Shown in pieces: positions 8,723-28,050 of a stretch of DNA of 30,148 nucleotides (position 1 is the stretch's first letter; each line of letters starts with the position of its first letter). The notes under the pieces are model-generated. The model searched no databases. It worked only from the letters and a program-made list of their open reading frames with translations, and was not told where the DNA came from. A program made the position numbers and the translations under genes. Source of the stretch: a virus. The stretch is from IMG/VR virus record IMGVR_UViG_3300032224_000128, positions 1 to 30,148 of that record, one strand, 5' to 3'.

Positions 8723-11700
8723 TTAATAGACTCCATCACCGTTTTCTGGACCACTGAGATATTTCCAAGCACCTGGAGCATCCGAACTGGCTACTTTATA
8801 AGGAGGTCCATTGCTGGCATAAAGATTACCACCATTAAAACTTCCACCTGGAACAATCATAGCGGCATTGGCAATATTACCTCCACCACTGGCTGTAATG
8901 GCTTCGTTGATATTGCGTTTGTATCCTGCTGTATAAGGATTGTAATCACTGACATTGACCACAGTGGTGCGATTAACACCAAGATTAAATCCATTGGCAT
9001 CTTGAACATATCCTAGGCCACTGCTGGTGGTATTAAAATCTGTAAGTCTAGCGGCTTTAGTGCCTTCTACACCAGCATCTTTAATCACAAACAAGAATTC
9101 TGCATATTTGGTCTGTGAACTAGTTCCTAGCCAAGAAGTATTACCTGCACCATAGTATGGATAGACATCTGTTACATAGTTTGTGCCACTCCAAGTATAA
9201 GGCCATTTGCCAGAAGATCCATAGAATGTTTGGAATGCACCATTTGCGGGTGTGCCTGTATTAGGGAATAGACTAGGACTAAATGGACCACGTAGGTTCA
9301 ATAGATAGTAACCTGATGTCTTGGTCATTGAAGCTCTTGGAATCACTACCTTTTCCCAAGCACCAAGTCCATAATACTTTGGAACAGTTCCTCTAGGTGT
9401 AACATTGTCTGCGTGGCCTAGACTGTCAAATACACGTCTGTAGACCACAATGGCATCAAAGGTATCATTTGGTGTGGTGAATGCCATTTTGTAGTAGGTA
9501 TTCAATGCCCAACTTGAAACAACACCTGAAGTTTTTATTGCGTAGACTTCTGGTTGGCTGGCGCTTTCACCTACAACCTGTGTGCCGCCGCTGGCAAAAC
9601 TGTCACTGACATTATAGGCCTTGACCTGTCGTTTGGTCCAAGCCGCACCTGATCCACTTAGACCTATGGTTGGTATTGCGGCAAAGGCCGCTGATAAACT
9701 GCCTGTGATAGTCAGTGTGTCAACAGTTTGCCAATTGAATACATTGTTCAATAGATCTGTATAGAGATTATTAGTTCCAGGATCAACTTTGGCACGGCAG
9801 TATAAACTGTTGGTGGCTTCTTTAGTTGAGCCTGTTGCAGTATCAAAATACAATGCGGTAATGATCCAATCAAAGGTTTGACTTAGAACAAAGCCACCAC
9901 CATTGAGATTCCAAATTACATATCCACTTGCGGCATCAGCCAATGTGCCAACGTCATAGGAATAGGTTGTGGGATTGGCACCTGGAACATATGGGCGCCA
10001 ACGAACTTTAAAACCACTCCATTTGGTTGATGTAGGCACACGGAATAGCATTCTCAAAGTATTGCTGATGTTATCAGGTTGTTTGATAGCATTCGATGGA
10101 GCAAATGTAGGAATAATTTCTGCACCTGTGGCCACAGAGCCTTGTGGTGCTTGATCTGTAGTCTGTAGAACAAAGGTAGCAGGGATAGTAACCATTGGTG
10201 ATGATTCATTACTTGCAGTGATTGAAGGATCAATAGTGCCTACTGCTGAATAGGCAAAGATATTAAATGCTGTTAGTCCTAGGCCATTGACTTCAACACT
10301 GGGGCTTTGTGCATAATATTGTTTTTGTGCGGCTGTGCCATTTCTATAGTTTAGGCGAACAACAAAACTATATTTGCTATTGCCACTGCCTGTTGCACCA
10401 AAGTCTCCTGCTAGGTCCCAAGAAACTTGTGTGAAAGGTGTATAACCTGCCACATTGTCAAAGTTATAGTCTTCATAACTGTAATAGGTATCTGTTGACA
10501 GTTTGTAATAGATCCTAACACCCTGTATTAGGTTATTGGTAATGGCACTGGTAGCATAGGTAATCTGTGTCATCTTAACTGATACACGTCTACGACCACT
10601 TACTGTTTTAGGCAATAGTTGGAACTGGTCAATGGTATCATCATATCTAGGTGTGGTTACAACCAATGTGGCATCCGGTGCCCAACCATCTGTAATTTGA
10701 ACCACTGTTGGAGGTTGTGCAACACCTGTAAGACTTGTTGAACCTGAGTTCAAGGAAACAGTTGAATATAGAACTTTATTTGATCCACGTCCATCGCTGG
10801 CAAATGAACGGATGTAATAGGTAAACACACCATAGGTGCTGATAAAACTTACAGGAATGTCGCCACCACTACCTGGTAGTATATCCATACGCACCTGTGT
10901 CCAAGCAGAGTAGGCATTGGCACGCCAATACATTATGCTGTATTGATATAGACCATCTGTAGGTTGTGTAAACACAAGATTATAAGAAACTGTGCTGCCT
11001 TGTAGGATTGTGGCTGAACTAGATTTCAAACTTAGAACTGCTGAGAATGGCACAACAGGTGCAGGTGGTGTTGGTGTTACTGGTGCAGGTGGTGTTGGTG
11101 TTACTGGATTGTTAGGATCACTAGGTGGCGTTACTGGTGGCGGATTAGGCACACTTGGTGGTAATGTTGGAATCACTATTGGGAATGGTGCCTGTGTAGG
11201 CGGCACAAGTCCAATAGGATCTCCTCTATTCACACTTGATGGATAATAGATATCACTGCCTTTTGGCACATAGATCGCAGCCACTAGGTCTTCTTCATTG
11301 TAGCGAGCGTGTGGATAGATGTCATCAGGATTTTTAACCAGACCCAAGGTCACTGTCATATTGTCGTTGATTTTTACTGACACTACACGCCAAGGAATTA
11401 TTAGACTTGAGCTTGTGGTAAAGTCTAAAATGTTGCCCTGCACACGAATGTTGTCACCAGGCTCTAGTTCAAGACCTTCTGAACTTACAGTTATTGAAAT
11501 GGTTTCTTGACGACGTGATTTATAAAACAATAACTTGGCCATATCTTTGGCAATGGCATAGTTGGTAATGGTTGGGAACGTGGCTTCCATTTTGTTTTCA
11601 CGTCCGCCATCTTTGACAATATATTGTTGACGTTCTTCTTCTGTTTCAGGCCATACCACCTGTTGATTGCTCCATTTCTGATCTGGATCAACATAGGTCA

Positions 11701-12910
11701 CAACCACTGCAGAATACTTGTTGGATTTTTCAATACCTGTATAGGTGATACTGCCAACGATGTCACAGACATTGCCTGTGTATTGATTCTTGGGATATGG
11801 TTTGCTGGTAGCAGTCATTACCACAGTGGCTACACCACTTAGGATATCTGTGTCATTGCCAGCATCTTCAATCTTCAATTTGTATTTGCCTTGAACATAG
11901 GGCATATAACCACGGAAGCCCATTAATAGCGTTTTAGTGTTGGCAAATATTGTCTGTCCTGTAGACAACACAAAGTTAGAGGTTAAAATAGGACCTGCAT
12001 AACTCTGTCCAGTGATATAGGTCACTGTGGTATTACATTTGTTAGCTGATTTGATCCACGAATCCCAATGGATATCATCGTTGACTAGTCCCTTGCCATA
12101 GCGTGGATTGCGTAGATAGTCTAACAAGATCTCTGCTGGGTTTGTAGAATAACGAACTGGTGCTGAACCATATTCATAACTACTGCTATTGGCATCTAAG
12201 GCAGCAATACGGCGACCTAGCAGTTCAACTTGAACTTCTGGTATATTGCCCTTGAATGGATTGTTGTCAGCATCTGCTTGTGTTTTGATTTCTTTCCATT
12301 CATAACGAACTGCCAAACAGGCAAGGCCATTAAAATTCATTGTTTTGGTAAAACTAGGAGAGTCAGCAAATATGTTGGTCTTCCAATAGGTGCCAACTGT
12401 GCTGGCAGCGGGATTGGCATAATAAACACCTGGATTCCACATCATACGCACACGACCATTATAGCGATCAGCATTGACATCTACTACCTTACCTGCATTG
12501 ACATCTGCGGTCAACGACACTGGCAACTCCCAGTCATCAATGAATACCTTGCGAAGCCCTTCTACTACGCCTTCACTAAACACATAGACCACATAGAGAT
12601 ATTTGTTGTTGGTTGATCCAGTTTCAGCAAATACCACTGTGCCACCAACCTTGCGAAATCCATAGACCACAGGAATATCAATATTTGATCCTGTCTGCTG
12701 TATTAGAACACCCTGTTGACGATCTGCTTCCGCAGCCGCAGAGGGTGTGTCTGGCATTCCCCCTAGCATTCCTAGGAATGGTTGTGCCACAAAGTTGATA
12801 ACATCAGATACGACATTAACAACTGCCTTGACTACTGAACTTACTACATTGACAACTGCCTTGACAACACTAGATACCGCATTGCCAATGGCCTTAAAGA
12901 CTTTAGCCAT
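8723..12910 (-). CDS. Tail tip attachment / host specificity protein (J-like)
   Basis: At 1395 residues this is the largest protein. Residues 1-48 form an amphipathic helix with a perfect 11-residue duplication (SSVVKAVVNVV at 13-23 and 24-34). Then follows a hub region typical of lambda J-like proteins: DIPVVYGFRKVGG, KYLYVVYVFSEG and NPAEILLDYLRNPRYGKGL near residue 265. A Pro-rich hinge (~567-620), partly coded by a 24-bp tandem repeat, separates the hub from a long chain of Ig/fibronectin-like beta domains that should bind the receptor. A strong AAAGGAG precedes the ATG, and the start overlaps the GNAT gene's end. It follows the tape-measure and minor tail genes as in other siphophages. 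Confidence 0.88.
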   Translation of the reverse strand: MAKVFKAIGNAVSSVVKAVVNVVSSVVKAVVNVVSDVINFVAQPFLGMLGGMPDTPSAAAEADRQQGVLIQQTGSNIDIPVVYGFRKVGGTVVFAETGSTNNKYLYVVYVFSEGVVEGLRKVFIDDWELPVSLTADVNAGKVVDVNADRYNGRVRMMWNPGVYYANPAASTVGTYWKTNIFADSPSFTKTMNFNGLACLAVRYEWKEIKTQADADNNPFKGNIPEVQVELLGRRIAALDANSSSYEYGSAPVRYSTNPAEILLDYLRNPRYGKGLVNDDIHWDSWIKSANKCNTTVTYITGQSYAGPILTSNFVLSTGQTIFANTKTLLMGFRGYMPYVQGKYKLKIEDAGNDTDILSGVATVVMTATSKPYPKNQYTGNVCDIVGSITYTGIEKSNKYSAVVVTYVDPDQKWSNQQVVWPETEEERQQYIVKDGGRENKMEATFPTITNYAIAKDMAKLLFYKSRRQETISITVSSEGLELEPGDNIRVQGNILDFTTSSSLIIPWRVVSVKINDNMTVTLGLVKNPDDIYPHARYNEEDLVAAIYVPKGSDIYYPSSVNRGDPIGLVPPTQAPFPIVIPTLPPSVPNPPPVTPPSDPNNPVTPTPPAPVTPTPPAPVVPFSAVLSLKSSSATILQGSTVSYNLVFTQPTDGLYQYSIMYWRANAYSAWTQVRMDILPGSGGDIPVSFISTYGVFTYYIRSFASDGRGSNKVLYSTVSLNSGSTSLTGVAQPPTVVQITDGWAPDATLVVTTPRYDDTIDQFQLLPKTVSGRRRVSVKMTQITYATSAITNNLIQGVRIYYKLSTDTYYSYEDYNFDNVAGYTPFTQVSWDLAGDFGATGSGNSKYSFVVRLNYRNGTAAQKQYYAQSPSVEVNGLGLTAFNIFAYSAVGTIDPSITASNESSPMVTIPATFVLQTTDQAPQGSVATGAEIIPTFAPSNAIKQPDNISNTLRMLFRVPTSTKWSGFKVRWRPYVPGANPTTYSYDVGTLADAASGYVIWNLNGGGFVLSQTFDWIITALYFDTATGSTKEATNSLYCRAKVDPGTNNLYTDLLNNVFNWQTVDTLTITGSLSAAFAAIPTIGLSGSGAAWTKRQVKAYNVSDSFASGGTQVVGESASQPEVYAIKTSGVVSSWALNTYYKMAFTTPNDTFDAIVVYRRVFDSLGHADNVTPRGTVPKYYGLGAWEKVVIPRASMTKTSGYYLLNLRGPFSPSLFPNTGTPANGAFQTFYGSSGKWPYTWSGTNYVTDVYPYYGAGNTSWLGTSSQTKYAEFLFVIKDAGVEGTKAARLTDFNTTSSGLGYVQDANGFNLGVNRTTVVNVSDYNPYTAGYKRNINEAITASGGGNIANAAMIVPGGSFNGGNLYASNGPPYKVASSDAPGAWKYLSGPENGDGVY
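11058..11105. repeat. 24-bp tandem repeat in J-like gene
   Basis: Two exact copies of a 24-bp unit (11058-11081, 11082-11105) code for two copies of TPTPPAPV in the Pro-rich hinge. Such a repeat could change length by slippage and so alter hinge length. Confidence 0.85.
12809..12874. repeat. 33-bp imperfect repeat in J-like gene
   Basis: Two adjacent 33-bp units (12809-12841, 12842-12874) differ at several bases yet code for the same 11 residues, SSVVKAVVNVV. The protein duplication has therefore been kept while the DNA drifted. Confidence 0.75.
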
Positions 12911-13995: not shown

Positions 13996-14613
13996 TTACC
14001 ACACTTCCCTCATTTTAACTGACAAACTAGTCATACCACCATATCCAATGTCAAACGTCTGTGCATCTTCTTCACAGATTGCTGTAAATGGAACTGATGT
14101 GATTGTGAGGTTAGTGCCATTGGGAACTGCGGCTACCAATGGACAGGTAAAATAAAGCGTGGCCGCTCCTGCACCATCACTGTTACAAGGGCTTACTGCC
14201 ATATAGACTTTTGAATGATTGGCAAACTTGAAAAAGTCACCTGCGGCCAATACTGTTTTGTTAGCACCACAGTTGGTCAGTGATACTTGTTTTGCTCCCA
14301 GGGCGCCTGCGGCTGATGTTCTTGGTGTAGATGAAGTTTGATTTGTCAGTTTGCTATAGGATATCTTTGGCAATAGGATTTCAAAACTAAATGTCTGACC
14401 CAGTGTCTGTCCAAGATATCCTTGAACTGTGCCTGCATCAAGAGGCACTAGTTGTGGATATTTTACTTCCCAAGTGTAATAGGTAACGCCTAAAGACACA
14501 CGTCTCATCTTACCACTCATTGATACAGATGTCTGTGCTGGTGTAACTGTTTTAAAGTTTATACCTGTGAAACTGGGCGATGTGGGATATTGACTTCCTG
14601 TTATATCAGCCAT
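13996..14613 (-). CDS. Minor/distal tail protein
   Basis: A 205-residue beta-rich protein just after the tape-measure gene, with a TAATG overlap to it. This is where distal tail or minor tail (lambda M-like) genes lie. The C-terminus (FDIGYGGMTSLSVKMREVW) looks like the final strands of such proteins. Residues ~85-150 form a Ser/Thr/Ala-rich insert. The assembly role (joining tube end to tip) is inferred from order. Confidence 0.7.
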   Translation of the reverse strand: MADITGSQYPTSPSFTGINFKTVTPAQTSVSMSGKMRRVSLGVTYYTWEVKYPQLVPLDAGTVQGYLGQTLGQTFSFEILLPKISYSKLTNQTSSTPRTSAAGALGAKQVSLTNCGANKTVLAAGDFFKFANHSKVYMAVSPCNSDGAGAATLYFTCPLVAAVPNGTNLTITSVPFTAICEEDAQTFDIGYGGMTSLSVKMREVW

Positions 14614-17141
14614 TATACAATGCTCCTATGTCCTCTATCTAACATAGCGTCAGATATGATCTGTTGAATAACACCCTTGCGACTTGATAACAGTTGATCA
14701 AATCCTTCTGTGTCGTTGGCCACAATGGTAAAGTTCACATTAGTTACCCCACCACCACTCATCTTGTCATTAGGTGTGATTTGTCCACTTGATGCTGGTG
14801 TAAACATCTCTGGACCATTTTCACCAACAATGTATGGAGTGTTAGCACTAACACCACCACCAACTTTCTTACCACTATAACTTTGACTGCGAATAGCATT
14901 GACTTGAACCATACCAGCGGCCACTGCGGCAGCGGCTGCGATAAGACCAAATGGCCAAGGATATGTGGCCAATGCCTTGGTAGCACCCATATAGGTATTC
15001 ATTATGGCCTGTGCAATGTTTAAGGCCTTGCTGGCTTCAAATGCTTTTCTATTCTGTTGACCTAAGGATGAAAATAAATTTACCGCTTGATCAATACCAA
15101 ATTGTGTTTTTTCTAATGTTGATTTCTTTTCAAAGTCAGCGGCTTCTTTGGCCATTGCCTTTTGTGTTTCATAACCAAACTGTGTGCCAGTGGCCGCTTG
15201 GATCTCTTGAAGTTTCTTGGCTTCAAAGATTCTACTATTCAAAGCCATTAGTTCTTCAGCGTGAGCCTGTGCTCTTAGCAATTCACGATTTTCAAATTCA
15301 ATGTCTGCAATTTCTTTGGCATTGCGATATTCAACATCTAGATTGGTTTTAGCCGCAATCATAGCGGCATAACTATTTTCTAATCCTGAATTACGTTTGA
15401 GTTCTTCTTGTGCAATAGCATCATCAATGGCTTTCTTCTTGGTAGCATAATCCTGTGCCATTGCTAGACGTGGATCACTGGCAGCGATAACTCCAGTGGC
15501 AGTGGCAATACGCTCTGCTTTGGTCTGTGGGGTTGCCGCACCTGATAATAGATTACGTTGTTTTTCTGTTTCAAGTGCTTCTTTTGCCGCTTGATTATTG
15601 GCAATAGTGGCACGCAGAGTCTTTTCCATCTCTGCTGTAAAATCTTTACCTAAGGCATTGCGTTTCAATTGAACAGCAAGTTCTATTTCACGATTGTCAA
15701 GGTCTTGAACATTTAAAACATTCAATTGTGTTTGACTGTCTTTCAATGCACCTTTTAGAGCAACTAATTCTTTGTTGCGAGCAATTTGACTAAGAACAGT
15801 ATCAAGTTGTTGTTTCTGAGCATCAGACAATTGATATTCATACTGTTTGTTGATGTTATTGATTTCCATCCTACGCTGGTATTCAGCATTGGTCTCACCA
15901 ATAACTGCCGCTTGTGCTTTAAGGTCTCTTAGTGTTTCTTCATTAAACTTTTTGCTAACACCTAACATCTGGCCTGGTGCACCTATAGTAGCCTGTGCGT
16001 TTTTATTAGCATCTGCTAATATCTTAGCACCCTTGGTCTGTGTTTCAATGGCTTTCTTAGATTTATTATCAAAGTCTTCAACACTCTTGCTATAGGCAGT
16101 AAATGGATTTTCACCTTGGACCAAGGCCATCATCGCTGAACCAAGACCAACAACAGTTCTTACTAAACCACTAATAGCTGATTCAACTGCATCAACAACA
16201 GGTTTAAGTATTGGTCCTAATACATCTGCAAAATATAAGGCTGCGGCTGCAACGGCTGTAAATGTTGCAATTACTGGAGCAAAATAAAGTGCCAATCCCG
16301 CTATGACAACACCTAAGACTTTAATTACTGGTATTAGATTTTCACCGTTGTCTGAAATCTTTTGTGCAATATTAGCAAAGGTTTCTGCAATGCCTGTAGA
16401 ATTTAATATGGCCAATGCTGTGGTTGCAAAGGCATTTTGTATCACTGTCATTGACTGTTCAAGAGTCTTGCTAGTCTTGCCAGTCATACTATCTAATTCG
16501 CCCATTGAACGAACTAATGCATCTGTAAAGTCTTTACCAGCAACAAGCCCTTTTGTTTTAAACTGTTCAAATTGTTCACGAGTAATACCCATATTTGCAA
16601 TCAATTTGTTTAAGACATTACCTGACAGGTTTTCAGTCATAGTGACAAATTCGTCACCATTGAGTTTACCTTTGTTTAATACCTGACCAAATTGATACAA
16701 TGTGGACGCTGAACCTGCGGCACTGGCACCAGAAGCCTGTAAGGCTGTGGCCATTGCATTGGTCATTGTGATAACTTGGTCTTGACTATAACCAAGTTTG
16801 TCAGCATTCATTGCGGCCTTGGCATAGGTATCACCAACAGCCGTTAGGCTCATACCAGTTTTATCTGATATGGCCTTGATTGCTTCATTAGCCTTGTTGA
16901 ATTCTTCTGTAGAGTTTGTGGCAAGGCGAAGTTTGTTCTGCATATTCTGCAGATCATTGATCATACCAAGTAGACTGCCACCAGCCATACCTGCGGCCAA
17001 TGCACCCAAGGCCTGTTGCATACCTTGGAGACTGCGTTGAGCACTTTGAACAGATCGTTGAATACCACCAAGAGCACTTTCTACTTGATTGATGGCCCGT
17101 ATGGCACCTGAGGCATCACCTTCAAACTTTATAACGGCCAT
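14613..17141 (-). CDS. Tail tape measure protein
   Basis: An 842-residue protein. The N-terminal ~240 residues have the tape-measure domain (LRLATNSTEEFNKANEAIKA, GMSLTAVGDTYAKAA, LNGDEFVTMTENLSG). A hydrophobic stretch follows at about 265-305 (VLGVVIAGLALYFAPVIATF), then long Ala/Gln/Glu coiled coil, and near the end GENGPEMFTPASSGQITPN, a common tape-measure C-terminal motif. At about 0.15 nm per residue it would set a tail of roughly 125 nm. GGAG precedes the ATG. It follows the G/GT chaperone genes as expected. Confidence 0.92.
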   Translation of the reverse strand: MAVIKFEGDASGAIRAINQVESALGGIQRSVQSAQRSLQGMQQALGALAAGMAGGSLLGMINDLQNMQNKLRLATNSTEEFNKANEAIKAISDKTGMSLTAVGDTYAKAAMNADKLGYSQDQVITMTNAMATALQASGASAAGSASTLYQFGQVLNKGKLNGDEFVTMTENLSGNVLNKLIANMGITREQFEQFKTKGLVAGKDFTDALVRSMGELDSMTGKTSKTLEQSMTVIQNAFATTALAILNSTGIAETFANIAQKISDNGENLIPVIKVLGVVIAGLALYFAPVIATFTAVAAAALYFADVLGPILKPVVDAVESAISGLVRTVVGLGSAMMALVQGENPFTAYSKSVEDFDNKSKKAIETQTKGAKILADANKNAQATIGAPGQMLGVSKKFNEETLRDLKAQAAVIGETNAEYQRRMEINNINKQYEYQLSDAQKQQLDTVLSQIARNKELVALKGALKDSQTQLNVLNVQDLDNREIELAVQLKRNALGKDFTAEMEKTLRATIANNQAAKEALETEKQRNLLSGAATPQTKAERIATATGVIAASDPRLAMAQDYATKKKAIDDAIAQEELKRNSGLENSYAAMIAAKTNLDVEYRNAKEIADIEFENRELLRAQAHAEELMALNSRIFEAKKLQEIQAATGTQFGYETQKAMAKEAADFEKKSTLEKTQFGIDQAVNLFSSLGQQNRKAFEASKALNIAQAIMNTYMGATKALATYPWPFGLIAAAAAVAAGMVQVNAIRSQSYSGKKVGGGVSANTPYIVGENGPEMFTPASSGQITPNDKMSGGGVTNVNFTIVANDTEGFDQLLSSRKGVIQQIISDAMLDRGHRSIV

Positions 17142-21854: not shown

Positions 21855-22757
21855 TTAGATCAAGCAGTCTGCTGTGATTGCAACACCAAATGTTCTTTGT
21901 AGAACCTGTGCACCTGCTACTGATTTCAATACCACATCAGTTGCGCGGTTAGCTGGCAAATACAGAGTGTTCATTTCTACTGAACCACGCATTGCGTGAC
22001 CTGTTGAACCAGGAGTGAATACCAATGCCTTGGCATCGTCACTACCGTCAACTGTCAATAATGCTGATTCAAAAATCTGAACACCAGCCAATGAGCCAAT
22101 GTAGAAACCACCTAGGATGTTTTCAGCAACAGAGTTCATTGCGGCACCACGGTTTTCTGCGAATGATGTTGAACTTGCAGTTGCGCCGTTGTAGGCAATA
22201 ACCTTAGTCATAGCATCTTTCAATGCGTATGCTTGTGCTGGGTGAACCACTGCATAGAAAGGACCTGTTAGTTTACGCTGACGTAAAGTTGCAGCCGCTT
22301 TCAAGATCAATGTAGGTGTTAGTTCATTACCTGCTGTGCCTAGGTCTGTGGAGAAACCATATGTGCCGTCAGCCATAGCGTCAAACACCTGCTTGTCCAT
22401 AGACTCAGCAATAGCACGACCACTTTGCTCACCAATCTGTGCGAAGACATTGCTGTAAGCAGAGTCTTTCAACTGATCAGTTACTTGATGGTAAACCACG
22501 TGTTCTTTCAAAGTGATTGTTGCTGAAGTTGTGTTTGTTGTCAATGCTGTTGCTGCCGCTTCATCAGCGATCAATGTAGCACTAACGCTAGACCAGATTG
22601 GAACTTGTAGGTTTAAACCTGCGTTCAATGGTGCGTCAAACACTGTTACTAGTTGACGAGCGATTGACTGCTCGTATGCGGCGAACTGAGCGGCTGTAAC
22701 AAGGTTTGCATACAGTTCGTTGTTGATATTGGTATTACTATTTGATGGGTAAGCCAT
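21855..22757 (-). CDS. Major capsid protein
   Basis: A 300-residue protein with HK97-type features: helix near the N-terminus (LYANLVTAAQFAAYEQSIAR), then VFDAPLNAGLNLQVPIWSS, the VVYHQVTDQLKDSAYSNVF region, spine helix ILKAAATLRQRKL, and the P-domain/A-domain strands FYAVVHPAQAYALKD and GVQIFESALL. AAAGGA precedes the ATG. It follows the scaffold gene and is closed by a terminator, as expected for the most abundant virion protein. Codon use is less A+T-rich than in the island. No separate protease gene is visible in the cluster. Confidence 0.88.
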   Translation of the reverse strand: MAYPSNSNTNINNELYANLVTAAQFAAYEQSIARQLVTVFDAPLNAGLNLQVPIWSSVSATLIADEAAATALTTNTTSATITLKEHVVYHQVTDQLKDSAYSNVFAQIGEQSGRAIAESMDKQVFDAMADGTYGFSTDLGTAGNELTPTLILKAAATLRQRKLTGPFYAVVHPAQAYALKDAMTKVIAYNGATASSTSFAENRGAAMNSVAENILGGFYIGSLAGVQIFESALLTVDGSDDAKALVFTPGSTGHAMRGSVEMNTLYLPANRATDVVLKSVAGAQVLQRTFGVAITADCLI

Positions 22758-22779: not shown

Positions 22780-23460
22780 TTATCTACCTTGATTGGATTT
22801 CCATTGTGCGTAGACCTTGCGATCTGCTGGCTTGGACATATCCAATTTGGTGACATCTATATTTTGAGATCCACCTCCAGAACCTATACTATTGCGTGTT
22901 TGTGTAGTTGCAGGGCCTGCTGCCACAAAATGTGGATTAGCATCTAAGAAGTTCTTTACAAGATCTTCAACTCCCCAGGCTTCCCCATTGTCTTTGTAAC
23001 GGGTCATACCATTTGTGTCAACTACTTCTACTTCACCATCTGGTGTCATTTTAATCTGATTACGCAACAATGCCTTGACCTGTTCAGGGGCTACGGCACG
23101 ATATTTGGCTGCGGTCTCAACTAAAGGACTATCCACACGATACTGTGCAATAATACTATCTCTTTTAGCGATCTCTGCGTCTTTTTTAGAAGCCATCTCT
23201 TTTAGAATCTGTTCAAAGTCTCCCTTGCCCTTGTGTTCTTCAAACTGTTTGTTTTCAAACTGTTCTTTTAGAGCACGAAGTTCATCTGGACTGCCTAGTT
23301 CAGCATAGGCTTTTACGGCCTTGCGTTCCACGGCTGCACGGGTTTTGGCCATTGCATCGTCAAATTCTTTCTGAGAATAAAACTTCTCTTGTGCCTGATC
23401 TTCACCTTGTTGGTCAGCGACAGTTGCTGGTTTTGTTGCCAATGTATTTTGTAAGTCCAT
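22780..23460 (-). CDS. Scaffolding protein
   Basis: A 226-residue Glu/Lys/Gln-rich protein from the ATG at 23460, which has AAGGAGG upstream. A GTG at 23511 would add 17 residues but lacks a ribosome site. The centre (~35-120) is coiled coil (KEFDDAMAKTRAAVERKAVK, LKEMASKKDAEIAKRDSII). The C-terminal part has a short domain (PEQVKALLRNQI, VEDLVKNFLDANPHF) and a basic tail (RKVYAQWKSNQGR), typical of capsid scaffold tails. It stands just before the capsid gene. It would guide procapsid assembly and then leave. Confidence 0.8.
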   Translation of the reverse strand: MDLQNTLATKPATVADQQGEDQAQEKFYSQKEFDDAMAKTRAAVERKAVKAYAELGSPDELRALKEQFENKQFEEHKGKGDFEQILKEMASKKDAEIAKRDSIIAQYRVDSPLVETAAKYRAVAPEQVKALLRNQIKMTPDGEVEVVDTNGMTRYKDNGEAWGVEDLVKNFLDANPHFVAAGPATTQTRNSIGSGGGSQNIDVTKLDMSKPADRKVYAQWKSNQGR

Positions 23461-23527
23461 TGTAGACTCTGCCTCCTTTGGAGTGTTTGTTTTAGAATAA
23501 TATTTAGCCACCTGGCTAAAATATCAT

Positions 23528-23698
23528 TTACTTATGCCCGTGTTTTTTGCCAGTATGGGTTTTTGAGCCTGTATAACCATTGGCATACATTGCTCGCATC
23601 TGGTTGACTGCACCAGCACGAGTGGGATAGACGTGACCACTGTTACCATACTTGTAGCCTGTGGCACCTGATTTAGTTTTCACTTTCATTATGGGCAT
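23528..23698 (-). CDS. Small basic Gly/Tyr-rich head-cluster protein
   Basis: A 56-residue basic protein with GAGG before its ATG. The segment ATGYKYGNSGHVYPTRAGAV is followed by NQMRAMYANGY and a Lys/His-rich end. Small basic proteins of this style recur in head-gene clusters of aquatic phages, to my recollection, without known function. It lies between the 52-residue protein and the scaffold gene. Its charge would suit DNA or capsid interior binding. Confidence 0.75.
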   Translation of the reverse strand: MPIMKVKTKSGATGYKYGNSGHVYPTRAGAVNQMRAMYANGYTGSKTHTGKKHGHK

Positions 23699-23709
23699 AT
23701 CAATACCTC

Positions 23710-23868
23710 TTAGGTGGTTTTATTGGTTTTTTCTTCTTCATTTTTCTGCTCCTTTTTACCAAATATTAGATCCCAGTTGGATTCAAACTGCGATTTATTT
23801 TCAGGTTCACGTTGTGTGTATTTGAGATCTCTCCAGCGGACCTCTGTGCTTGAATATCTTGCGTCCAT
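23710..23868 (-). CDS. Small charged head-cluster protein
   Basis: A 52-residue protein starting by TAATG overlap with the Dps-like gene's stop. It reads STEVRWRDLKYTQREPENKS, then QFESNWDLIFGKK, and ends in a Glu/Lys/Asn-rich tail. The aromatic/charged first half looks like a folded or binding peptide. It is the only frame that fits this gap with a coupled start. Function unknown. Confidence 0.7.
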   Translation of the reverse strand: MDARYSSTEVRWRDLKYTQREPENKSQFESNWDLIFGKKEQKNEEEKTNKTT

Positions 23869-24380
23869 TATAGTTTAGGTGTGGGTTCTTCTGGTATGCC
23901 CATTTCTTTATCAGCGGCCTTTTCAGCTTCAGCCACTGCTGGATCTTCCATTGACGCAGTCAACATCCATTTCAAATGTTCAGCTGCCTCTAGATAATCT
24001 GCTAGGATGTTTTGTAAGCCATAGACACCTTCTTTCTGGCAAAGGTCAAATGCCTTGGCCGCATCCATTCTAACTGTTTCAACGTCAGCGTATAGTTCCA
24101 TCCACATATCTTCAGGACAGGGCACCACTTTCTCATCAACGATTGTGGTCAATTCACGGATACGATCTATTGAGAATGGCACCACATCACCTAGTGTGCG
24201 TGAACCTTCTGCCAGGCGGTCAATGTATTCTTGAAAGTTCTGATAGATCTTTTCTAGGAACTGATGATTGGCATAAAATCCTTCACCTGTGACATTGACG
24301 TGGAATCCGTGACTTTTAGTATAGAGAGCAAAGTTATCCGCCCATAACTGTTTCATTGCTGTTGATAATTGTGTGCTCAT
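23868..24380 (-). CDS. Dps/ferritin-like protein
   Basis: A 170-residue helical protein with the Dps signature SHGFHVNVTGEGFYANHQF followed by YIDRLAEGSRTLG. The four ferroxidase ligands align with exact Dps spacing: H27, H39, D54, E58, equivalent to H51, H63, D78 and E82 of E. coli Dps. The Trp normally after the first His is Val here (H27-V28-N29). Helices ~110-155 complete a four-helix bundle; the tail is acidic and Pro-rich. Dps oxidises ferrous iron with peroxide and stores it in a 12-subunit shell. Here it sits between portal and scaffold, overlapping the portal stop as ATGA, where many phages have a protease. Confidence 0.82.
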   Translation of the reverse strand: MSTQLSTAMKQLWADNFALYTKSHGFHVNVTGEGFYANHQFLEKIYQNFQEYIDRLAEGSRTLGDVVPFSIDRIRELTTIVDEKVVPCPEDMWMELYADVETVRMDAAKAFDLCQKEGVYGLQNILADYLEAAEHLKWMLTASMEDPAVAEAEKAADKEMGIPEEPTPKL

Positions 24381-26260
24381 TGCTGTTGTCCTTGTTGTGT
24401 TGTGTTATCTGTGATGGGTCCACCTGCTACCCAAGCATCACAGGTTCTAGTAGACTTGCATTTGAAATCAAATGCTTCACAGTAGCCTAACTGACCACCA
24501 CCTACTGAATCCCATTCATCTCCTGTGGCTCCACCTGCTGCCAATCCTTGATCAATACAGTCTAGGATAGCAGTCTTCATATTAAAGAAACTGCAATTAC
24601 CACAGCGACTCTGTTTGACAGTGGCCACATCAGTTTTCCACATATCAGCCTTGGCAGCCCAGAATACTGTGTTAGGTAGTGCAGGGTTGAGTGGACCATA
24701 GTTGGCAGTATCTATGGCCTTTTGTCTGTTGGCCAGGTTGACGCCTATATCCTGCGTGGCCACGGGGCAGGAGGCGTTAGGAAAATTTCCAGGGGTTGCT
24801 CCAGGACTAGTTATAGTTGCATTACCTACTTGTGAGATACCTAAGGCCTGTTGTTGAACTTCATTGATCAAGCCTGATGCTACTGGTGCAGGCTCTTGAT
24901 AGGTCATTGGATCAGTTAGATAGTTATTGAAATCTTCATTGCCCAATGCTGTGGTCATAATCTCATAGTCCAACATCTTCTGATATTCAGGATTGGTTAC
25001 TGACTTACGAGCTTCTGTAAGGGCAGTGAGTTCATTTTTCTTGTCCTGGATGTTGAATGTGTCTGGATATTCTATTTCACCATCCCAGGTCTTGCCTTGA
25101 TAGGCACACCAGTAATACCAAATATTATCTTCACAGAGTTCAAGATTATCTGCTTTGTCACTGAGACGTGCATTCAACATTTGAAATTCTGTTTCCATAG
25201 CAATGCCTGACAGTGTGCTGGTCTTGGTAGCACGAGCTGATCCTAGGTTGGCCATACGATCAATGGCTTCAATACGATGCTTCATTGATTCATAGACTGC
25301 TGATACTGTGGCACCATTAGGCTGTAATAGGTATGGCTTCAAGCCTGGATCTAGATTGTCTTCTATCTGCACCACTGAACCAGCACCTGCTACCGCTTCT
25401 GTGCCTGCTGTTTTAACTAGGCTGGGGTGACCATTGATGCGTATGGTCTGTTCTACTTCTGAATATTCATTGTAGATGGCTCTTTGCAAGTCTGCGATGT
25501 CATCTACCGAGCTAACTCCCACGCCACGCTTGGGGCTACGCTGATCATAGCAGATGGTAATAGGAATATAACCAAGTCCATTGGCTTCAACGATGTGTTC
25601 TTTGATGGCTTGATCTTCTTTGTCCATCACTGATGTTTCAATGCGATCAGGGAACCATTCTTTGATAGTTATAATATGGCTGCGATCTGAATCTTCCATA
25701 TATTTGAAATACTTGAGGTGATACATACCAGCGGCTGAGCGTTCCCATTCCCAATCCAGTGCTGATAATGGAGTGATCATTGACACATAAGGTCTAGCAC
25801 CTACTGTCATTTCATCTGCACGGGTAACTGCGCCAACATTAGGCTTTGAAACAATCACCCAACAGTGACCAAACACACCTGAATAGGTAGAAACATCCTT
25901 CATAAATGAATCAAATGATTGCCCCTCTAATGTGCTATCATCTAGAAAGTCTTGTAGCATTACATCACCTTCTAGGCTGGCAAAGTCACGTGTTGGTGGC
26001 TTGCGGAACATAAAGGCATTATAGACTGCTAGAACACCTTTCACGTGATTGTCTAAGGGTGTGGTCCACATACGAGTGATGTAGTCCTGTTCACTTTCAT
26101 TGGCGTATCTGGTTAGATACTGTCCTTGACGATACATTTCACCGCCTAGAAAACTGTTTAGGAGGAATCTCCAACGTCCATTTAGGTTTTGATACTGTTC
26201 GTGTGTTCCCAGTAAGGCTTCATACTGTTTGCTGGAACCTACTCCTGTGTTTTGTGGCAT
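24377..26260 (-). CDS. Portal protein with Cys-rich C-terminal extension
   Basis: A 627-residue portal protein (SPP1/DUF4055-like style): clip/stem region with WTTPLDNHVKGVLAVYNAFM, SVDDIADLQRAIYNEYSEVE, a long helix YESMKHRIEAIDRM, and SGIAMETEFQMLNARLSDKA. It follows TerL, and GAGGAAG precedes the ATG. Unusually, residues ~550-616 form a separate Cys-rich end with C553, C556, C568, C594, C601 and C607 (CGNCSFF, GYCEAFDFKC, TCDAWVAGG). This recalls high-potential iron-sulphur proteins (CxxC...C...GWC/GYC). Portal assignment is firm from order and motifs; metal or Fe-S binding is a hypothesis. Confidence 0.85.
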   Translation of the reverse strand: MPQNTGVGSSKQYEALLGTHEQYQNLNGRWRFLLNSFLGGEMYRQGQYLTRYANESEQDYITRMWTTPLDNHVKGVLAVYNAFMFRKPPTRDFASLEGDVMLQDFLDDSTLEGQSFDSFMKDVSTYSGVFGHCWVIVSKPNVGAVTRADEMTVGARPYVSMITPLSALDWEWERSAAGMYHLKYFKYMEDSDRSHIITIKEWFPDRIETSVMDKEDQAIKEHIVEANGLGYIPITICYDQRSPKRGVGVSSVDDIADLQRAIYNEYSEVEQTIRINGHPSLVKTAGTEAVAGAGSVVQIEDNLDPGLKPYLLQPNGATVSAVYESMKHRIEAIDRMANLGSARATKTSTLSGIAMETEFQMLNARLSDKADNLELCEDNIWYYWCAYQGKTWDGEIEYPDTFNIQDKKNELTALTEARKSVTNPEYQKMLDYEIMTTALGNEDFNNYLTDPMTYQEPAPVASGLINEVQQQALGISQVGNATITSPGATPGNFPNASCPVATQDIGVNLANRQKAIDTANYGPLNPALPNTVFWAAKADMWKTDVATVKQSRCGNCSFFNMKTAILDCIDQGLAAGGATGDEWDSVGGGQLGYCEAFDFKCKSTRTCDAWVAGGPITDNTTQQGQQQ

Positions 26261-26270
26261 TTTTTCTTCC

Positions 26271-27569
26271 TCAATATCTGTAAGTTGTTGTTGTTCTTGC
26301 GGCGCTGGTATCTAGTGAATGTCCCCAGGTTGTAGGCTGAGCAACACCGCTGTGATCGCGACCAATGGGGAATAGATAGTCTACCATATAACCTAAGGCA
26401 TCCATCATATGATCATAGCCTGACTCTTTGTCTGGCTGACTGGTGCCTTCTTTGTAGGTCTGACGCTCTAGTCCCTCAATAGTGTATTTACAGCGCGGAT
26501 CTATAAAGAGGTGTCTAATGCCTGATGTTGAACACAATCTTGAGTTCACTGCATTGATACGATCTCGCACTGGTGTATGGCTGTGTGGTGCCTTTACGAC
26601 GAATCCTGCGTTTTGGAGGATTGTAATATCCGTGGAACCACCTGCTGATGTTTTTCTTTGTCGTGCCGCTGGATCTGGATATGCCCAGATTTTAGCACTT
26701 GGATATCTGCTTTTAACTTCATCCACTGCTTCTTGGGTGTTAGAAGAAAACATACGGATTTCATCAATGACATAGAGACTGTCTCCTGAACGAACTGCTA
26801 TGACCACACTCATAGGATCTATGTTAAAGTCCCATCCAGTGTAGAGAACCTGCTGTTTGATGTCTTTGAATGGTCCTTTAGGATCACTGAGATTACAGGC
26901 CACAACATTGTGAGCACGGTCAAAGCCATAGTAGATACGACCTGCAAAGGTTTCAAAGGTTGCTAGGTATTCTTGATTGAATGTTCTAGCATCTAGGTCT
27001 CTGCGTGCCTGTTGTATTTCTGTTTCAGGAACTTGTCCACCATCAATAGTGGTGAATGTATAACTGGCCCAGTGTTGGGGATCTTCTAGGGTATTCTGAT
27101 AGAGTTCATAGGCCCAGTTACCAATGCCCTTGGGTGTGCCAATAAACAGGGCACGGCCCTGCTTGTCTGATAGTGTAGGACGTAGTGTTTCAAACCAAGC
27201 ATCTGGGTCAATGTCAGCGAACTCGTCCAATACGATAAAGTCCAGCCCAACTCCACGCAGACTATCGTGATTATCAGCGCCTTTGAGAGATATAGTAGAT
27301 CCATTTTTGAGATGGATGGTAAGTTCAGTTTCATTTATTTTGTCTGCCCATTTTAGGTCTTGCAGTCTGTGTTTGAGTTTCTTCCAGGTGATGTTCTTTG
27401 ATTGTCTATATGAGGGACTCACATACCAAACATCTTTATTAGGTAAACGAGCGTGATAGCATAACTCTCTAATGGCCAGATGTGTTTTGCCAAACCTTCG
27501 TCCCGCTACGCAGACACGAAACCTAGTGTTATCTTTGGCTATTTTATTCTGGGCTGGAGTCAGTTTCAT
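26271..27569 (-). CDS. terL: Terminase large subunit
   Basis: A 432-residue packaging ATPase/nuclease from the ATG at 27569, chosen because GAGG lies six bases upstream; an ATG at 27626 would add 19 residues inside terS. Walker A is AGRRFGKT (22-29), Walker B IVLDE (112-116), and the coupling motif is GTP (144-146). The nuclease domain has acidic residues in GWDFNID (D247), YPDPAARQRK (D299) and YDHMMDALGY (D386, D390). It pumps DNA through the portal and cuts it. It overlaps terS by 26 bp and is followed by the portal gene. Confidence 0.95.
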   Translation of the reverse strand: MKLTPAQNKIAKDNTRFRVCVAGRRFGKTHLAIRELCYHARLPNKDVWYVSPSYRQSKNITWKKLKHRLQDLKWADKINETELTIHLKNGSTISLKGADNHDSLRGVGLDFIVLDEFADIDPDAWFETLRPTLSDKQGRALFIGTPKGIGNWAYELYQNTLEDPQHWASYTFTTIDGGQVPETEIQQARRDLDARTFNQEYLATFETFAGRIYYGFDRAHNVVACNLSDPKGPFKDIKQQVLYTGWDFNIDPMSVVIAVRSGDSLYVIDEIRMFSSNTQEAVDEVKSRYPSAKIWAYPDPAARQRKTSAGGSTDITILQNAGFVVKAPHSHTPVRDRINAVNSRLCSTSGIRHLFIDPRCKYTIEGLERQTYKEGTSQPDKESGYDHMMDALGYMVDYLFPIGRDHSGVAQPTTWGHSLDTSAARTTTTYRY

Positions 27570-28050
27570 CTTGGTCCTCACGCCACGGCAATGGCTGATT
27601 TTCTTGTGAGCTATTTGGATTGTCACTCATACCCAACATATTCTTAGATAACCATATCTGCATCACTGCATTGCCACCTAAGGCATTCTTCAACATAGCA
27701 CGTCTTAGGCTCATTTTGACATCCTCACGACCTTTTGCCAGGATCTCACTGAAATTCGTCTTTAGTGTGGTTTCTGCTACGTCAAACCAACGGGCTATTT
27801 CACTGTCATTGCAGCCTATTGCTGCCAGTTGGTAAACATCTTCAGGTGCCACTACCCTCTTGCGTAGTCCACGACCTACTTCATAGCCAAAGACTTCTAC
27901 TGCCACCAACTGCTTGGGTTTAGGTCCAGGCTTTGAAGGATCTCTAGGTGGGGCCTCAGGGTAGGGCACAATGATAAACTGCTCACCTTGGGGTTCTTTG
28001 CTAGGATCACTAGGTTCAAGCCCTAGTTCTAGTGCTTGTTCAGGGGTCAT
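27544..28050 (-). CDS. terS: Terminase small subunit
   Basis: A 168-residue protein. The first ~65 residues are Pro-rich and probably flexible. Then a helix-turn-helix: VYQLAAIGCNDSEIARWFDV (about 71-90), followed by TTLKTNFSEILAKGREDVK and the AMLKNALGGNAVMQIWLSKN helix typical of TerS oligomerisation regions. It binds phage DNA to start packaging and activates TerL. The start overlaps the upstream stop as TAATG. Confidence 0.87.
   Translation of the reverse strand: MTPEQALELGLEPSDPSKEPQGEQFIIVPYPEAPPRDPSKPGPKPKQLVAVEVFGYEVGRGLRKRVVAPEDVYQLAAIGCNDSEIARWFDVAETTLKTNFSEILAKGREDVKMSLRRAMLKNALGGNAVMQIWLSKNMLGMSDNPNSSQENQPLPWREDQDETDSSPE

Follow-up and report, generated by a model that had tools for sequence, protein, structure and literature searches.

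The portal protein of an uncultured tailed phage appears to carry at its C-terminus a mobile, phage-specific accessory module resembling high-potential iron-sulphur proteins (HiPIPs), which probably binds one [4Fe-4S] cluster via C553, C556, C594 and C607 and would have a redox or iron-related role in the phage head. We hold this reading with moderate confidence, and it draws on the definition of a family, its conservation and predicted fold, its single copy per genome, its exchange between carrier proteins and its presence or absence beside near-identical portals.

The module-bearing portal and its cysteines

The window analysed here is the entire virus record of 30,148 bases, and all of its features described below lie on the minus strand. 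The portal gene (24377..26260) is an open reading frame of 627 aa, identified by its match to the phrog_145 portal profile (E 1.3e-58, residues 19-423) and by its position after the gene for the terminase large subunit, which lies upstream (26271..27626, profile match). The portal stop codon is overlapped by the ATG of a Dps/ferritin-like gene (ATGA; 23868..24380; PF00210 E 7e-15, 55.6 bits against a cut-off of 24.5; phrog_3636 E 4.6e-27), followed downstream by the genes for a head scaffolding protein (22780..23511; phrog_206 E 1.2e-8) and the major capsid protein (21855..22757; PF25209 E 4e-9; phrog_267). Between the Dps and scaffold genes there is a 56-aa basic, glycine/lysine-rich ORF (MPIMKVKTKSGATGYKYGNSG...; 23528-23698), and small basic ORFs are also found close to the modules of two other loci, L008 and L012. 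Elsewhere in the window, proteins similar to tail fibre J (8723-12910), tape-measure (14613-17141) and baseplate-wedge (848-2212) proteins point to a long-tailed phage.

Family alignments and the predicted fold place the module at portal residues 496-617 (24410..24775). It contains seven cysteines, five of which are invariant: C553 (24602..24604) and C556 (24593..24595), predicted as the first and second cluster ligands within a CxNC motif; C594 (24479..24481), the predicted third ligand, within GYC-x2-F; C601 (24458..24460), the fifth family-wide cysteine; and C607 (24440..24442), the predicted fourth ligand, within C-x2-W. The remaining two, C498 (24767..24769, in the motif CPxxTQDI) and C568 (24557..24559), are characteristic of one subfamily. 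The first-pass annotation of this DNA had located C553, C556, C568, C594, C601 and C607 exactly, as the codons confirm, but its count of six missed C498, and its range of 24377-24726 gives way to the one above, which starts at about residue 496.

The five invariant cysteines were present in 176/176 family sequences examined, all of which follow the pattern C-x2-C-x(30-42)-C-x6-C-x5-C-x2-W, while the same five-cysteine pattern occurs in just 178 of the 7191 ORFs of the fetched loci and is thus far beyond chance. Two subfamilies could be aligned: subfamily A, to which the window module belongs, has seven conserved cysteines, and subfamily B, about 30% identical, has five. C498 and C568 are confined to subfamily A, being present or absent together by subfamily. 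With regard to selection, the module shares 86-88% amino acid identity with its nearest relatives, although fourfold-degenerate sites are just 37-60% identical, and it is therefore under strong purifying selection.

Predicted fold and ligand register

Sequence comparison did not by itself establish homology to HiPIPs. The PF01355 HIPIP profile gave the window module 12 bits, below the gathering score of 22, and although this was the family most often matched, it remained below the cut-off in all cases (13/72 and 15/83 members of two alignments, best E 0.028-0.13). Profile-profile comparison with hhalign yielded probabilities of 13% and 21%, confined to the CxNCxF stretch, and a sequence search of the PDB returned no HiPIP match. 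Moreover, the excess of the HiPIP-HMM score over shuffled sequences with fixed cysteines was gone once the shuffles also kept W, F, Y, G and N in place. A proof from sequence was thus abandoned, and the proposed homology rests on predicted structure.

Two models were obtained. For the window module, modelled from a 72-sequence alignment, the best model reached a pLDDT of 77.5 and the other four 47-60; a plain Foldseek search of the PDB returned no match, and in a second look with VIA-align every listed row at Z >=2 was a HiPIP (Z 2.5-3.5). This weak first model was improved on by turning to a more distant member with a deeper alignment: AlphaFold predicted a five-cysteine relative from subfamily B with a pLDDT of 88.5 and a pTM of 0.79, from 83 sequences with the window module included. 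The two models are not fully independent, since the second alignment contains most of the sequences of the first. In the PDB, Foldseek ranks 1-15 for the subfamily-B model were all HiPIPs (E 0.008-0.45, probability up to 1.00, TM by target length mostly 0.5-0.64), and the first unrelated match had an E of 4.3. VIA-align listed 13 HiPIP entries at Z 4.1-5.5, and its only other matches at Z >=2 were chains of benzylsuccinate synthase, 2y8n and methylalkylsuccinate synthase. For the accessory subunits of these glycyl radical enzymes, a HiPIP-like fold and the binding of [4Fe-4S] clusters have been reported (PMC12358834; PMC12590467).

The main support for a HiPIP-like fold is how specific these matches are for each of two different proteins. 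The fold is found in the predicted models, at VIA-align Z values that are modest both for the relative (4-5.5) and for the window module (2.5-3.5), and by itself it does not demonstrate iron. Neither the unrelated fold nor the non-conserved cysteines that the first-pass annotation had named as contrary evidence were found, as the structure matches are to HiPIPs and the core cysteines are invariant.

The ligand register had to be inferred, because the aligner prints no residue pairs. Residues 1-107 of the subfamily-B model align with residues 1-85 of 1hip, and since residue 107 aligns with residue 85, C99 of the model (equivalent to C607 of the window) would fall on C77 of the HiPIP if the C-terminal stretch is ungapped. 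Likewise, C594-x2-F appears to match C63-x2-F of the HiPIP, and C607-x2-W to match C77-x2-W/Y. The best register thus has C553, C556, C594 and C607 as putative cluster ligands, with about 20 inserted residues, which include a helix, between the CxxC and the predicted third ligand. The original HiPIP-like reading is upheld by the predicted fold and the conserved cysteines, but not in its ligand register, in which C568 was third and the cysteine of GYC (C594) was last; this register was rejected, as the whole of subfamily B is without C568.

Distribution, carriers and gain of the module

Two viral scans found at least 571 and at least 512 relatives of the module, and since the best 80 by similarity were kept, the sample is a biased one. 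In a prokaryote genome collection the module was seen at 8 loci only, all on MAG contigs, and none was found on plasmids; a cellular origin was rejected on these grounds. No Pfam, PHROG or NCBIfam model for the family was found. In GenBank, some phage homologues already bear the name "high potential iron-sulfur protein" (DSL-LC01 WJZ48512, Manatee Spring MW202xxx); they belong to the same family, being 30-54% identical with conserved core cysteines, but are annotated as separate proteins, whereas the window module is fused to a portal. Searches for literature on phage HiPIP-like proteins or on these named homologues, and for virion proteomics of module-bearing phages, returned nothing. Among isolates, Roseobacter phage CRP-13 has the five-cysteine core, with a shorter middle spacer, in gp68 (L203:2861-3181), a hypothetical protein of 106 aa encoded close to the terminase genes.

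Exactly one module was present in each of 36/36 module-bearing records tested (24-137 kb), on a variety of carriers. Portal fusions occur in the window, L008, L013 and L015-L019, which represent several separate portal lineages. Fusions to Dps are found in L014 and L050. In L014 (1463-2329) a module-less portal is directly followed by a Dps-module fusion, 289 residues from stop to stop, with a Dps part 32% and a module 87% identical to those of the window, and in L050 (2222-4168) ferritin, module and DUF5824 are combined in one protein. Prohead proteases of the XkdF (S78_2) and S78 types carry the module in L020, L023, L028 and L048, a further carrier is an HNH/head-morphogenesis-like protein, and a 1067-aa stop-to-stop ORF in L100 (723-3923) joins the module to DUF5824, an S78 prohead protease and an HK97-type capsid protein. 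Additionally, there are many standalone copies of roughly 130-170 aa, among whose neighbours are genes for terminase, scaffold, capsid and protease. A single copy per genome on interchangeable carriers suggests that the module itself is what is kept.

A second four-cysteine motif with HiPIP spacing (e.g. CGNCVFWEAPNGCEIISHETEEGGLCRFA) was observed on the module's own polypeptide, in several cases in DUF5824-type proteins (L029:1512-2594, L034, L035, L041, L045/L047/L051, L055, L062, L065, L070 and identical loci, L071 and L092:8165-10771), and in DSL-LC01 such a motif sits in the neighbouring capsid-protease ORF.

The closest relative of the window portal, in L001, is 95% identical over residues 1-468 and ends at 481 aa with Dps directly after it, having no module. 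The difference is an in-frame segment of 432 nt (144 codons; 24414..24845 by BLASTN/MAFFT, boundaries approximate) that is absent from the portal-Dps region of L001, and the DNA flanking it is 88.3% and 87.5% identical between the two. No module was found in five portals about 77% identical (L003, L005, L006, L009 and L010), nor elsewhere in the genomes of two module-less window relatives tested. The phrog_145-like portals of Pelagibacter phages HTVC026P/111P/202P and of Phage DSL-LC06, whose bodies are 41-44% identical to that of the window, also end without a module, unlike the window portal. In a portal-body tree the window is the sole module carrier in a ten-row group (support 99/99), its nesting among module-less portals has 100/99 support, and more distant portals (L008, L013, L015, L016, L017/L019) have the module at the same place. 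The expectation that portals normally lack such a domain is thus borne out by the close relatives, but the fusion is not unique, as several portal lineages have it.

A recent gain of the module by the window portal is the simplest reading, repeated loss being possible. In a check for lateral transfer, fourfold-site identities were 50 v 34% for L008 and 60 v 44% for L014; transfer is argued for from presence/absence and from the portal tree. Relatives without the module have retained a portal and Dps that are almost the same, so the module is dispensable for portal function.

The proposed link with Dps finds support in the fusions of L014 and L050 and in the adjacency of the two in the window, but most module phages are without a detectable ferritin. 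A ferritin-like gene was detected in 13/36 module-bearing A-type records and in 0/20 B-type records, and it is present in both module-less window relatives tested. An obligate partnership was rejected on these counts and cooperation with Dps is not general; Dps often accompanies the module but is not required.

Possible roles and relation to known systems

The preferred reading is that phages keep a single copy of the module on whichever head protein is available, be it portal, Dps, prohead protease or protease-capsid polyprotein, or as a free protein. In the window lineage, the portal would have started out without a module and gained one, in frame, where its glutamine-rich tail borders on the Dps gene that follows. 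A portal ring would accordingly have twelve copies. In structurally known portals the C-termini face the capsid lumen, so the twelve predicted clusters would lie inside the head, near the DNA, and Dps is the product of the next gene, which overlaps that of the portal. The likeliest job would be that of a redox- or iron-responsive cluster in the procapsid or virion, which may hold or exchange electrons near the packaged DNA, whether or not Dps takes part. The redox or metal site at the packaging vertex that the first-pass annotation had suggested is likewise putative. A stronger version, in which a redox-active ring of twelve [4Fe-4S] copies on the portal's lumenal face acts as a sensor or buffer of redox state and controls genome packaging, retention or ejection, or protects DNA together with Dps, coupling infection to host iron or oxygen, strikes us as quite improbable.

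Two other accounts of the module were weighed and appear unlikely. A cysteine-rich domain of HiPIP-like shape could be stabilised by structural zinc or by disulphides and have no Fe-S cluster, which would suit five invariant cysteines rather than four and the subfamily-specific pair C498/C568, and would agree with sub-threshold zinc-finger matches in one or two members. However, all structure matches at Z >=2 are HiPIPs or enzyme chains with HiPIP-like [4Fe-4S] subunits, PF01355 is the most frequently matched family even if below its cut-off, and disulphides are unlikely to form during assembly in the reducing cytoplasm. Much the same low likelihood is given to a module that is mainly a docking tag, binding a capsid or scaffold surface and carrying its fusion partner (Dps, protease or enzyme) into the prohead, with a cluster that is only structural. 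Fusion to interchangeable head proteins and to two Dps is indeed tag-like, and HiPIP-like [4Fe-4S] subunits can be structural, as in the case of BSS-gamma, which promotes solubility and has no known catalytic role (PMC12590467). Nonetheless, a portal and a protease need no recruiting, the many standalone copies have no partner to bring, and one copy per genome fits a component better than a reusable tag.

That the portal fusion arose as a chimera of the assembly, or by a recent, neutral insertion devoid of function, is very unlikely and was already disfavoured. The record is a metagenomic virus contig whose nearest relative is entirely without the module, but the 432-nt difference is in frame with both flanks matching that same relative at 88%, the same fusion recurs in L008, L013 and L015-L019, a BFVD portal model of 618 aa has 89% module identity, and amino acids are conserved where silent sites have strongly diverged.

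With the HiPIP-like cluster module retained as the preferred reading, its occurrence as a single copy in hundreds of environmental phages, on varied head proteins or alone, suggests that phage heads may carry an Fe-S cluster. If the cluster is real, the heads of many environmental phages would be built with a [4Fe-4S] protein in or next to them. This would cost iron and place a redox site at the vertex used for packaging, neither of which, to our knowledge, figures in any account of how phages assemble. As the module occurs once per genome and moves between carriers, its function can be tested in an isolate, for instance through gp68 of Roseobacter phage CRP-13.

Compared with HiPIPs (PF01355; PDB 1hip, 1eyt, 1hlq), the module shares the predicted fold, the CxNCxF motif, a third cysteine followed by x2-F and a last cysteine followed by x2-W/Y, and the gap between the third and fourth ligands is similar (12 residues against 13 in the HiPIP alignment). 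It differs in the distance from the CxxC to the third cysteine, which at 30-42 residues is about 20 longer than the short spacing of the HiPIP alignment, in one to three extra conserved cysteines and in scoring below the Pfam cut-off. Furthermore, HiPIPs are free, exported (periplasmic) electron carriers, whereas the window module is the C-terminal part of a portal. The [4Fe-4S] subunits of glycyl radical enzymes (BSS-beta/gamma, HPAD-gamma, MASS-beta/gamma) resemble it in having the HiPIP-like fold as an accessory module, but the window module is fused to a portal, and no glycyl radical enzyme was matched among the window proteins scanned, a subset of its ORFs. With regard to phages, a domain of the lambda tail-tip protein gpL holds a [4Fe-4S] cluster of unknown function (PMC10721106) and, compared by description only, sets a precedent for Fe-S in a phage structural protein. 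It is located at the tail tip, and its ligands (Cys173/182/205/212) are arranged differently from those predicted for the module, which, if its own cluster is real, would be a further Fe-S site in a virion alongside that of gpL.
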